Shown here piece by piece: positions 2,757-6,255 of a stretch of 64,000 nt of DNA. This stretch comes from an uncultured Jannaschia sp. (lineage in GTDB: Bacteria > Pseudomonadota > Alphaproteobacteria > Rhodobacterales > Rhodobacteraceae), in contig CANLTZ010000009.1 in the NCBI GenBank assembly GCA_947494145.1, positions 124,001 to 188,000 of the forward strand, read 5' to 3'. The translations under genes were made by a program, and so were the position numbers. The notes beneath the pieces are model-generated. The model ran no database searches. It was not told the DNA's origin and worked only from the letters and a program-made list of their open reading frames with translations. How positions within the stretch are numbered: the first letter of the stretch is position 1; each line of letters opens with the position of its first letter.

Positions 2757-3410
2757 TCAGGCGGCCTTGAAGTCGGTTTGGTCTCGCATGATGGCGTGAA
2801 GGACGATGGCCAGCCGTCGTGCCAGCGCCACCCGCGCCTTGCGCATCGTTGAGCGGGCGGCGATGCCGCGCGCCCATGATTTCAGTTTGAGTGGTGCCGC
2901 GTATCTTGTCAGCATGACATTGGCGGCCTCGTAGAGCAGCGTTCGAACTTTCACATCACCGCGTTTCGAGATGCTGCCGCTGTAGTCGATCTCTCCCGAC
3001 TGGTATCTCTGAGGTCCGAGGCCGAGATAGGCTCCGACGTCACGGGATTTCTTGAACCGATGCGGATCATCGATGGCCGCAGCAAAAGCCAAGGCAGTGA
3101 TCGGGCCGACGCTTGGACCCGTCATCAACCGCCTACAGACTTCGGATTTTCGGATCATTTTCTTGATGTCGCAATCGATCGCCAACACGGCTGTCAGGAT
3201 GGCTTCTCGCGCGGCAAAGAGCCCGCATAGTGCAGCATGAAGACCGGGAACACCGTTACTGGCCGCCAGAGCAGCGTCCTTGAACGCTGGCGACAGGGCA
3301 CGAGACAATCGCACACCAAACACGACGACCAGCCCTCGGACCTGATTATCTATCGTCACGCGCTGGCAAACCAGTTTCTTTCGCGCTGCGATGAGTGATC
3401 GAACCGCATG
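2757..3410 (-). pseudogene. IS110-family transposase, C-terminal part
   Basis: About 218 codons remain of a Piv/MooV-type (IS110) transposase. The RuvC-like N-terminal half is missing. What is left contains the IS116/IS110/IS902 C-terminal domain, visible as LMTGPSVGPITALAFAAAI and FKKSRDVGAYLGLGPQRYQSG, followed by GDVKVRTLLYEAA. The frame reads on into the end of the IS21-family element, so the first dozen residues of the open frame are not transposase. The break falls exactly at the IS21 terminus (3410/3411), so the IS21 insertion or a linked deletion removed the 5' half. The missing half is not found on the other side of the IS21 copy. Confidence 0.85.
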
Positions 3411-3470
3411 TGTGGAACGGCATGCAAATTTGACCCCTATGTTCGGGTGATCGGCGTCCAAAAGTGACCC
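3411..3470 (+). repeat. IS21 left end (terminal and subterminal repeats)
   Basis: The end starts TGTGGAACGGCATGCAAA and has TGACCCC at 3431-3437. The block GGCGTCCAAAA (3453-3463) is followed by a second TGACCC. The right end has the same order and spacing in inverted orientation. Multiple transposase-binding repeats inside each end are normal for IS21. Confidence 0.75.
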
Positions 3471-4036
3471 CCCTGATGTTTCTGATCAGAAGCTTCCTCG
3501 CAGGCATGAGGGAGCAGTCAGGGGATGTTGGTTGTGGAGACGATCGCGAAGATTAGGCGTGCGCATTTTGTCGAAGGCAAGTCGATCAAGCAGATCTACC
3601 GTGAGCTGCGGTTGTCGCGGAACACGGTGCGCAAGGTCATTCGATCGGGCGCGACCGAGTTCACCTATGATCGCACGACACAGCCGCGTCCGAAGATCGA
3701 TCCCTGGCGCTCCGAGCTTGACGAGTTGCTGACCGAGAATGCGCGGCGGCCGAAGCGCGAACGGCTGACGCTGATCCGGATCTACGAGGAACTGCGCAAT
3801 CGCGGCTATGACGGCGGCTATGATGCGGTGCGCCGATATGCGTCCAGTTGGACGAAGGCGACGCGGGATGCGTTGGCGAGTGCCTATGTTCCGCTGAGCT
3901 TCGATCCGGGCGAGGCCTACCAGTTCGACTGGAGCCATGAGATCGTGATCCTCGACGGCGTGACGGTGACGGTCAAGGTCGCCCATGTCCGCCTGTGCCA
4001 CAGCCGGATGCCGTTCGTGCGGGCCTATCCCCGTGA

Positions 4037-4079
4037 GGTGAGCCATCTGGTCGCCATGCGTTCGAGACCGATGGCGAAC
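4037..4079 (+). repeat. Palindromic insert 1 in istA (type 1, 43 bases)
   Basis: It starts GGTGAGCCATC and ends GATGGCGAAC, with arms TCGCCAT and ATGGCGA around a loop holding TTCGAGACC. It sits between the IstA residues AYPRE and EMVFDAH. By family comparison from memory it replaces about two codons, giving a net gain of 37 bases and a +1 shift, which is the shift seen. Confidence 0.8.
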
Positions 4080-4152
4080 GGAGATGGTGTTCGACGCGCA
4101 CGACAGGGCATCCGCGTTCTTCGGCGGGGCCTGTGCTCGCGGAATCTATGAC

Positions 4153-4193
4153 AGCGGGAATTGTCCGCCATTGGTCCGAGGACAATGGACGCG
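4153..4193 (+). repeat. Palindromic insert 2 in istA (type 1, 41 bases)
   Basis: It starts AGCGGGAATT. Arms GTCC-CATTG and CAATG-GAC flank the loop GTCCGAGGA. It lies between GIYD and KTAVDTIF, where two codons (probably Asn-Met) are missing. The net gain of 35 restores the frame lost at insert 1. Confidence 0.78.
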
Positions 4194-4282
4194 AAGACGG
4201 CGGTGGACACGATCTTCGTGGGCAAGGAACGCGCCTACAATCGCCGCTTCCAGCAGATGTGCGGACATTACCTGGTCGATCC

Positions 4283-4325
4283 GCCGTCCATTGGGCTTGA
4301 ACCAATGGCGCCCTTCTGGACGGCC
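4283..4325 (-). repeat. Palindromic insert 3 in istA (type 1, reversed)
   Basis: On the plus strand the core is CCATTGGGCTTGAACCAATGG, a 7-base-arm palindrome. Read on the minus strand it aligns with the other type 1 copies (CGCCATTGGTTCAAG). It separates HYLVDP from CTPASGWEKG. Its end bases differ most from the consensus, so its boundaries are uncertain by one or two bases. Confidence 0.7.
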
Positions 4326-4585
4326 CTGCACCCCGGCTTCGGGCTGGGAGAAAGGTCAGGTCGAGAACCAGGTGGGTGTGCTCCGGCGGCGGGTTTTAGT
4401 GCCGCGGCCGAAGTTCAGATCCTATGCTCAACTGAATGCCTGGCTCGAGGATCGGTGCATTGCCTATGCCAAGGCGAACCGGCCCCCGACATTCCGGACA
4501 AGACGATCTGTGAGGTGTTCGAAGAGGAGCGGTCGAGCCTGGTACCGTATGTCGGTCCGTTCGATAGATTCCACGCCTTCCGGGC

Positions 4586-4628
4586 GTTCGCCATTGTCTC
4601 TCGGACCAATGGCGTTCAATGACTCACT
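4586..4628 (-). repeat. Palindromic insert 4 in istA (type 1, reversed, 43 bases)
   Basis: On the minus strand it begins AGTGAGTCATTG and ends CAATGGCGAAC, with arms CGCCATTG and CAATGGCG. It lies between FHAFRA and SKTCLVRF and causes the +1 shift observed there. Confidence 0.8.
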
Positions 4629-4656
4629 GTCCAAGACCTGCCTCGTGCGCTTCGAA

Positions 4657-4700
4657 AGTGAGGAGGATCAGCAAAAGGTCCGGGGGACCTTTTGCCCGAC
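4657..4700 (+). repeat. Palindromic insert 5 in istA (type 1-like, strong stem)
   Basis: It starts AGTGAGGAGG and ends CCCGAC. The stem is perfect: GCAAAAGGTCC, loop GGG, GGACCTTTTGC. Only the 5' AGTGAG and the end resemble the other copies; the stem is unrelated. It is in frame and adds about 14 residues between LVRF and NRYSVDA. Confidence 0.72.
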
Positions 4701-4875
4701 GAACCGCTACTCGGTGGACGCTCGCGCGGTCGGGAGGCCTATCGAGATCCGCGCCTATGCCGATCGCCTGGAATGCTGGCAGGACGGCCAGGTCGTGGCC
4801 CGCCATGATCGTGCCTTCGGTCGCGGCAAGACGATCTACGATCCGCTTCACTACATCCCGGTTCTGGCCCGCAAG

Positions 4876-4914
4876 CCCCCTCTCGCGCATGCAAGCATGC
4901 GCTGCCAGGCAGCG
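4876..4914 (-). repeat. Palindromic insert 6 in istA (type 2)
   Basis: It contains two adjacent hairpins: GCGCATGC-AA-GCATGCGC and CTGCC-AG-GCAG. Read on the minus strand it aligns with insert 9 (CTGCC.GGCAG, GCAT..ATG, CGA.AGGGGG). It is in frame (about +36) between VLARK and GALR. Confidence 0.72.
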
Positions 4915-4926
4915 GGCGCCCTGCGC

Positions 4927-4969
4927 AGTGAGCCTTGTGGTCGCCATTGGTTCGAGACCCTAGGCGAAC
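4927..4969 (+). repeat. Palindromic insert 7 in istA (type 1, 43 bases)
   Basis: It starts AGTGAGCCTTGTGG and ends GGCGAAC. The loop is GGTTCGAGACC, with imperfect arms TCGCCATTGG and CCCTAGGCGA. It replaces about two codons (probably Asn-Gly) between GALR and APFKDW-like sequence and shifts the frame +1. Confidence 0.78.
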
Positions 4970-5333
4970 GCGCCGTTCAAGGACTGGGATCTGCCGCCGG
5001 CCCTGCGCCGGGTGCAGCGCAAGCTTGAACGACAGCCCGGTGGTGATCGGCAGGTGGTCGACATCCTCGGTGCCGTGCTCACCGATGGCCTGGACGCCAT
5101 TGAAGCGGCCTGCGCCGAGGCCTTGTCTCACAACGTCCATTCCGCCGGAGTGATCTTGAACATCTTGGCGCGTCACCGCGAACCACCGCCACCCCTGACC
5201 ATCGCAACGGCGGATGCGCTGAAGCTGGGCCGCGAGCCTGCCGCCAATTGCGATCGCTACAACAGCCTGAGGAGACCAACGAATGGAACGATCACAGGTG
5301 CTCGACGCCATGGGCCAGCTGAAGCTCTACGGC

Positions 5334-5376
5334 AGTGAGGGGGCAGCCCGCCACCGGTCCGAGGGCGCCCCCGAAC
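5334..5376 (+). repeat. Palindromic insert 8 in istB (type 1, GC-rich stem, 43 bases)
   Basis: It starts AGTGAG and ends CGAAC like the other type 1 copies and keeps GGTCCGAG in the loop. The stem has changed on both sides: GGGGGC-GCCC pairs with GGGCGCCCCC. Matched changes in both arms with constant ends argue that the hairpin itself matters. Confidence 0.78.
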
Positions 5377-5631
5377 ACGGCCTACGACGAGATCATCGCA
5401 ACGGCGGTCAAGCGACAGCACGAGCCGCAACAGATCATTGGCGACCTCCTGGCCGCCGAGATCAGTGAGAAGCAGGCGCGCTCGATCAAATACCAGATGA
5501 CGATCGCCAAACTGCCGCTGGCCAAGGAGATCGAGGAGTTCGACTTCGAGGCCGCGGAGGTGAACGAGACCCTGATCCGTGACCTCGCCACCGGAGACTT
5601 CTTCGATCAGCAGCGCAATCTCGTGCTGATC

Positions 5632-5672
5632 CACTGCCCGGCAGGGCATTGCGCAACAATGTCCCGAAAGGG
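5632..5672 (+). repeat. Palindromic insert 9 in istB (type 2)
   Basis: Hairpins TGCCC-GGCA-GGGCA and GGGCATTG-CGCAA-CAATGTCCC overlap. It aligns with reversed insert 6. It is placed directly before the Walker A glycines of IstB and adds about 41 bases. Confidence 0.72.
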
Positions 5673-5845
5673 GGCGGAACGGGAACCGGCAAGACCCGTC
5701 TCGCGGTCAGCATCGCCCGTGCCTGCATCCGCACCGGTCGGCGGGGACGGGTCTTCAATGTCGTCGATCTGGTGAACAAGCTCGACGCTGAAGCCCGCGC
5801 CGAACGCCAGGGTCGCACCGCCGACCTGATCTCCCGTCTCGACTT

Positions 5846-5888
5846 GTTCGCCATCGGTCTCGACCCCATGGCGACGCGATGGCTCACT
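5846..5888 (-). repeat. Palindromic insert 10 in istB (type 1, reversed, 43 bases)
   Basis: On the minus strand it begins AGTGAGCCATCGCG and ends GATGGCGAAC, with TCGAGACC in the loop. It is nearly the same as insert 1. It lies just before the Walker B strand and shifts the frame by +1. Confidence 0.8.
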
Positions 5889-6203
5889 CCTGGACGAGCT
5901 TGGTTGCCTCCCCTTCGCCCAAACCGGCGGCCAGCTCCTGTTCCACCTCATCAGCAAGCTCTACGAGCGGACTTCCATCATCGTGACAACCAACCTGGCC
6001 TTCGGCGAATGGCCGAGCGTCTTTGGCGACGCGAAGATGACCACCGCGCTCCTCGACCGTCTCACGCATTACTGCGAGATCGTCGAGACCGGCAACGAAA
6101 GCTGGCGCTTAAAAAACAGAGCATAGCGCGAACCGCACCCCCACTGGCCCGCCGCCGTTGCGTTACATGGGGACTACGCAGCGCCGGGCCAGCTCAGCTC
6201 CTG

Positions 6204-6255
6204 AGGGGTCAATTTTGGACGCCGATAAGGGGTCACGATTGGATGCTGATTGACA
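6204..6255 (-). repeat. IS21 right end (terminal and subterminal repeats)
   Basis: Read inward from 6255 it starts TGTCAATCAGCATCCAATC, then TGACCCC. A second block of GGCGTCCAAAA and TGACCCC follows, matching the left end. Confidence 0.75.

Follow-up and report, generated by a model that had tools for sequence, protein, structure and literature searches.

Descriptions of small bacterial palindromes usually place them outside genes or, in frame, inside host genes. Rickettsia palindromic elements (RPEs) are found in frame within a wide range of genes; miniature inverted-repeat transposable elements (MITEs) are small, non-autonomous mobile elements with inverted repeats; and mitochondrial bypassing elements (byps) and yeast GC clusters place many tiny hairpins inside genes. 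Repetitive extragenic palindromes (REPs), including GTAG- and CGTC-tagged palindromes, are hairpins of 20-40 bp that occur in many copies and are sometimes intragenic (PMC3733652). Here we describe palindromes of another kind, starting from an IS21-family insertion sequence (IS) that carries ten of them, in a 64,000-nucleotide stretch of an uncultured Jannaschia sp. (contig CANLTZ010000009.1, positions 124,001 to 188,000; the window). We find a real, family-wide population of structured micro-palindromes, more general than was first noted from the letters of the window (the sequence-only reading), which sits mainly in transposase and other mobile genes. The inserts probably represent several families of mobile palindromes, very small (~36-44 nt), non-autonomous and defined by structure, that reside mainly in genes of mobile DNA. 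Their carriers belong mostly to the Rhodobacteraceae-type family of the window.

Ten palindromic inserts in one IS21 element

We aligned the window IS21 to four intact relatives (L002 from Ruegeria marina, L011, L082 from a Pukyongiella plasmid and L007 from Maritimibacter), all four of which lack all ten blocks across 3411-6255. The inserts were placed by alignment and, for families A and B, by covariance model; net gains are counted against these four relatives.

3411..6255, + strand: IS21-family element (istA, istB), both ends present, with ten inserts and one lost base, by alignment to relatives
4038..4079, + strand: insert 1, family A, ~5 native nt replaced, net +37
4153..4190, + strand: insert 2, family A variant, net +35
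4283..4324, - strand: insert 3, family A, net +37
4586..4627, - strand: insert 4, family A, net +37
4658..4700, + strand: insert 5, third type, perfect 11-bp hairpin, net +42
4878..4915, + strand: insert 6, family B, net +36, no loss of native bases seen
4928..4969, + strand: insert 7, family A, net +37
5335..5376, + strand: insert 8, family A, net +37
5631..5672, - strand: insert 9, family B, net +41, no loss of native bases seen
5846..5887, - strand: insert 10, family A, net +37

Against the same four relatives a single base is missing at ~4483, and the segments between inserts are well conserved. The sequence-only reading had proposed these ten inserts, these net gains and one lost base, which it put near 4490; the alignment bears it out on each, and none of the four relatives holds the inserts as normal coding sequence. 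The ten sort into family A (n = 7), family B (n = 2) and a third type (n = 1). Run on the window, covariance models returned seven A matches (E ≤ 1e-7) and two B matches (E ≤ 9e-6), all within the IS21; in the rest of the 64 kb the best A match reached only E = 0.15 and there was no further B match at E ≤ 0.1, in keeping with the earlier statement that no similar insert was noticed there. The core pattern, with up to three mismatches, matched the window six times, versus 0.43 expected in shuffles. An IS110-family transposase adjoining the IS21 (2757-3461) is free of A and B inserts.

The ratio of nonsynonymous to synonymous change (Ka/Ks), counted codon by codon over istA only and in the frame of an intact relative, as the istB start was not located, is 0.146-0.157 for the window versus its relatives and 0.109-0.111 among the relatives themselves. 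Relative to L002, the excess amino-acid change of the window IstA is ~0.024-0.028 per site, and this small excess suggests that the decay of the window IS21 may be recent.

Insert families and their structure

Family A folds from two outer base pairs, in most copies also a tandem G-A/A-G, a stem of 6 bp and a short inner stem, which enclose the constant loop CGCCAYYGGTYCGAG. Family B begins with CCCTYTCG, continues with a variable hairpin and ends with CTGCCGGGCA; the third type (~4658-4700) is the perfect hairpin listed above. Among 118 distinct family A copies (of 148 matches), 93.1% of cells pair, versus 71.3% when shuffled, a figure inflated by fitting the alignment to a model built from 18 of the same 118 copies. 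Changes on both sides of a pair occur in 309 cells versus 88 shuffled, and the covariation score is 0.502, versus 0.126 shuffled and at most 0.104 with partners slid. These both-side changes, which include the outer pairs, are hard to explain without a real family A structure, and that structure is strongly supported. The alternative stem sequences of family B look complementary each time, as judged by eye and uncounted. The A2 consensus has the ends GTGAG...GAAC, and a minority subtype, GTCGTCC...GGACGAC, contains CGTC. Rfam 15 returned one match over window 3900-6000, at E = 0.33 and far under the gathering score. A likeness of the A core to a tRNA T-arm, seen by eye, was dropped, the stem covarying without that fold.

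Copies in the same genome and across the family

The sequence-only reading took the bombardment to be of a single element, a view that does not survive: the same insert families occur elsewhere in the same genome. Our A scan (150 of 5348 candidates scored; 24 matches at E < 1e-3 of 26 listed at E ≤ 1) placed 21 of 24 matches in or beside transposase genes: seven in the window IS21, two on C12, four on C31, four on C18 (one in an IS110), one on C27 (IS110) and three single copies at the ends of C5, C10 and C29, the last two agreeing in sequence and perhaps being one place. Pfam or rve matches back 14 of these placements (window, C12, C18, C27), and the other seven (C31, C5, C10/C29) come from a reading of translated fragments; a Pfam scan beside the C10 copy returned no match. 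The B scan (150 of 7818 candidates scored; 25 matches at E ≤ 0.01) put 23 of 25 in or within ~0.65 kb of a transposase or integrase gene, of which 21 have the support of a domain match (rve, DDE_Tnp_1_5, DDE_Tnp_IS240, DDE_3, IstB-type or phage integrase, by rve or Pfam) and the two at C31 come from reading only; C25:9797 and C27:1142 are the two not placed in mobile genes. Six B matches lie within 1 kb (C11:25491-26488) around one rve-type transposase gene, which makes a second riddled IS.

Two side observations concern this genome. A family B copy sits inside the open frame of a phage-type tyrosine integrase (L241 ~1501-1542; C19:83910). A ~130-bp palindromic element of MITE-like look, with ends like AGCGGTTTTCGAAAAACCTGA / TCAGGTTTTCCGAAAACCGCT, lies within a broken transposase gene in one case and next to such a gene in the other (L129/L130, C8 ~231.1-231.2 kb; L083 325-450, C12).

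Across 394 genomes of the same family, family A was found in 178 (E ≤ 1e-5, with filters that lose weak matches) and its exact 15-mer core in 146; a reversed control pattern gave ~5 matches over the same 394. A class-wide sample held A in six of 289 genomes, two of the same family and four of other families, one of these four with 10% contamination. Plasmid records gave 33 matches to a first A query and 89 (60 listed) to a B query, and the genera named in them we take to be Rhodobacterales; a second A query matched 23 plasmid records, one of them from Azospirillum. Roseivivax sp. THAF40 has an A copy (NZ_CP045362.1 31853-31893) within a gene annotated as an IS3 transposase. One family A copy, searched against a phage record collection, had no match at E ≤ 0.1.

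The genes hit by A or B carry rve, DDE_Tnp_1, DDE_Tnp_IS240, IS66, IS110, Mutator (IS256) and DDE_3 transposase domains, and the non-transposase mobile hosts include a phage terminase gene and an integrase gene. That riddling is a property of this IS, as had been offered, is not supported, since IS of other families in this genome carry inserts too and the same insert families reach many other IS types, the terminase and the integrase. Taking one locus per genome gave 29 in the family: 21 within or next to a transposase gene, one in the terminase and seven otherwise, either unassigned or outside a transposase (L150, L151, L156, L157, L166, L169, L173). Eighteen of the 21 were placed by a Pfam match to the gene there (L162 by HTH domains only), L164 by identity with an annotated IS256 type, and L147 and L163 by similarity to such loci. 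In the terminase locus (L161 ~1501-1541) the family A copy is in frame within a 695-aa phage terminase large subunit (gpA) gene. In G148 (L174-L182) and G312 (L202-L205) the A core lies in dispersed repeats of ~70-105 bases with GGGG/CCCC or GGTCGTCC ends, which are possibly a source or sister class of the transposase-lodged copies.

Insertion sites and exchange between IS copies

We compared 25 occupied/empty pairs, many too divergent to fix borders. At the best-resolved A sites (L036 versus L033 in istB, L186 versus L194 in IS256, L142 versus L061, and window inserts 1, 3, 4, 7, 8 and 10), ~5 native bases were swapped for 40-42, as read by eye; the two window B inserts show neither loss nor duplication of native bases. 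Two Paracoccus plasmids share one A insertion near the start of a gene that appears istA-like, and whose empty state we infer, from the conserved protein start. Among 44 A inserts the net length is 35 in two, 36 in eight, 37 in 22, 38 in 11 and 39 in one; nine are divisible by three, and A insertions mostly break the reading frame. They face with or against the host gene at random (23 of 43 sense, p = 0.76). The list behind these lengths and orientations was compiled by hand; repeated loci and same-site copies were dropped, and it leaves out copies in L145, L147, L149, L155, L159, L163, L167, L168 and others.

Other IS21 copies, to which the earlier reading had pointed, fall both ways: some are occupied at the same sites as the window, and the four intact relatives are empty. 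The window, L020, L036, L037 and L054 carry insert 2 with at most one base of difference; its 46-mer, in a search that allowed up to three mismatches, has exact matches in G174 and at two contig ends of G183 that overlap, and so occurs in three of 394 genomes, the window's own included. The site of insert 3 is also occupied in L036, L014, L195 and L201, of which L201 carries diverged versions at the same two insert sites. The flanks of shared inserts follow each IS background and differ by ~6% to 31% between copies. All three insert sites of L036 are common to other copies, and its relative L033, 92% identical around the istB site, is without these inserts; by eye, the flanks of insert 2 in L036 follow L033 to within ~10 bases on either side. 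A pair of copies in G226, at 69% identity, agree without a difference over >60 bases around one insert. These alignments suggest that an insert can move from one IS copy to another with very little flanking sequence, either by conversion or by reinsertion. Plain vertical inheritance of the IS21 inserts is insufficient, as L033 is without the three of L036 and divergent copies share the same one. We also rejected site-specific homing of each variant: the variant GCGAG...GAGC is found in IS3-, IS21- and terminase-type genes, so that insertion is not tied to one site. The L033 IS21 has a different insertion of its own, of 62 bases and rich in short inverted repeats (alignment block 1260-1322).

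Some insert-bearing IS are multicopy. G328 has three IS110-type copies, 99.4-100% identical, with the same insert near the 3' end and only the C-terminus affected. In G353 an insert-broken IS256-type copy lies at four contig ends at 100% identity, and the assembly holds no other long match to it above 75% identity; the break precedes the region presumed to hold the catalytic Glu. Such broken IS could have been mobilized in trans, the insert could have spread through every copy, or the break could be put right; the random orientation and mixed frame speak against the last.

Proposed mechanism and alternative explanations

We suggest that an enzyme supplied in trans would recognize the folded single strand, DNA or RNA, by its constant loop and carry it to new sites. 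Because the frame is broken by most insertions, they should disable the transposase. Copies lodged in an IS would spread with it and between related IS copies, and such spread would explain why IS21 backgrounds that have diverged hold the same insert at one site. In this picture the hairpins resemble parasites of other parasites, and the window IS21 would be a recently killed copy. Local mutation at each site is disfavored because the inserts share families.

Several points weigh against these mobile palindromes of mobile genes. No candidate mobilizing enzyme was found. The shares of 21 of 24 and 23 of 25 in the own genome are not set against the amounts of transposase and intergenic DNA, and both scans scored only 150 candidates. 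Three own-genome A copies (C1, C3, C17) lie between ordinary genes or in unrecognized sequence, and residence of A in transposases is not exclusive, given the dispersed repeats of G148 and G312. The 29 family loci are the top-scoring ones per genome, under a model made mainly from transposase-lodged copies, and are biased accordingly. The empty sites come from relatives at ~65-92% identity, none from the same strain.

It is possible, though we would put it somewhat below an even chance, that there is no targeting: palindromes would land anywhere, selection would purge them from host genes, and IS would tolerate, carry and exchange them by recombination. That IS copies are dispensable and repeated, that the same insert occupies one site in divergent IS copies and that some copies lie outside transposases all speak for such tolerance. 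However, it would predict many copies in neutral intergenic DNA, and those outside mobile genes are only three of 24 A and at most two of 25 B; the only slightly raised Ka/Ks of the window IstA would require ten insertions within little neutral time; and the ~10-base limit of L033-like flank at insert 2 of L036 is short for ordinary homologous exchange. At the other extreme, a dedicated system, selfish or host-serving, would seek out transposase genes or transposing DNA, swap ~5 bases for a hairpin and disable many IS families; we think this unlikely, while noting that, if true, it would be a hyperparasite or a natural anti-transposon mechanism working via a folded single strand. Active targeting of transposases is thus a live but unproven possibility, and of the targeted mobile element proposed by the sequence-only reading, what stands is the mobile palindromes concentrated in transposase genes.

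The near-identical, multicopy insert-bearing IS of G328 and G353, together with the low Ka/Ks of the window istA, could mean that inserts are removed from mRNA or skipped by the ribosome, as in mitochondrial bypass, with transposases still working. We hold this to be very improbable: orientation is unbiased (23 of 43 sense) despite a loop and ends that differ between the strands; of 44 net lengths, which run from 35 to 39, only nine are multiples of three; the single site read by eye (L036 istB) showed no matching take-off and landing codons; and multicopy broken IS could arise by trans help or conversion, G328 being affected only at the C-terminus. Programmed frameshifting we set aside along with it. 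Movement of REP-type elements by a Y1 transposase (REP-associated tyrosine transposase, RAYT) is also improbable, a shade less so. Size, hairpin form and copies outside genes are alike, and intragenic REPs are described in PMC3733652; yet a Y1_Tnp match was found in three of 12 insert-rich genomes, the window's own being only a fragment of 35 model positions, and with none found in the other nine Y1 is unlikely as a general mover. Neither GTAG nor CGTC is the common A end, A replaces ~5 native bases, and CGTC-tagged REPs are reported not to be associated with transposase genes (PMC3733652). Assembly error, or normal coding sequence of the window IS, we consider next to impossible; only the draft status, with several insert-bearing IS copies at contig ends, speaks for error, but completed plasmids of named strains carry A, as do 178 of 394 genomes, and the ten blocks are absent from the four intact relatives.

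Comparison with known systems

A literature search, mostly of titles and abstract openings, yielded no published account that we recognized of such transposase-lodged palindromes, and a term search of PMC3925955 found nothing. A family-wide, transposase-lodged population, with covariation that shows selection on the folded form, points to a mobilizing enzyme and to some cause behind the preference for mobile DNA. It would help to explain broken transposases in this bacterial group, and it offers a countable system for asking whether bacteria or parasites restrain insertion sequences.

The RPEs are alike in being small palindromic mobile sequences inside protein genes of an alphaproteobacterium. 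By their descriptions they are nonetheless set apart from the present elements, which are 36-44 nt long, in frame in nine of 44 cases and mainly in transposase genes; RPE-1 is longer (PMC3733652). Unlike REPs, the elements here have no GTAG or CGTC common end, and Y1 was not found in most carriers tested; REPs are mainly extragenic, whereas 21 of 24 A and 23 of 25 B copies lie in or beside transposase or integrase genes (nine of these 44 placed by reading). MITEs share the non-autonomous, small and palindromic character, but the elements here are far shorter and have no target duplication, A losing ~5 bases and B inserting cleanly at two window sites. Byps differ in that here orientation is random and there is no constant frame relation, so that bypassing is unlikely. 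Each known class that we compared therefore fails at least one of the defining features tested.

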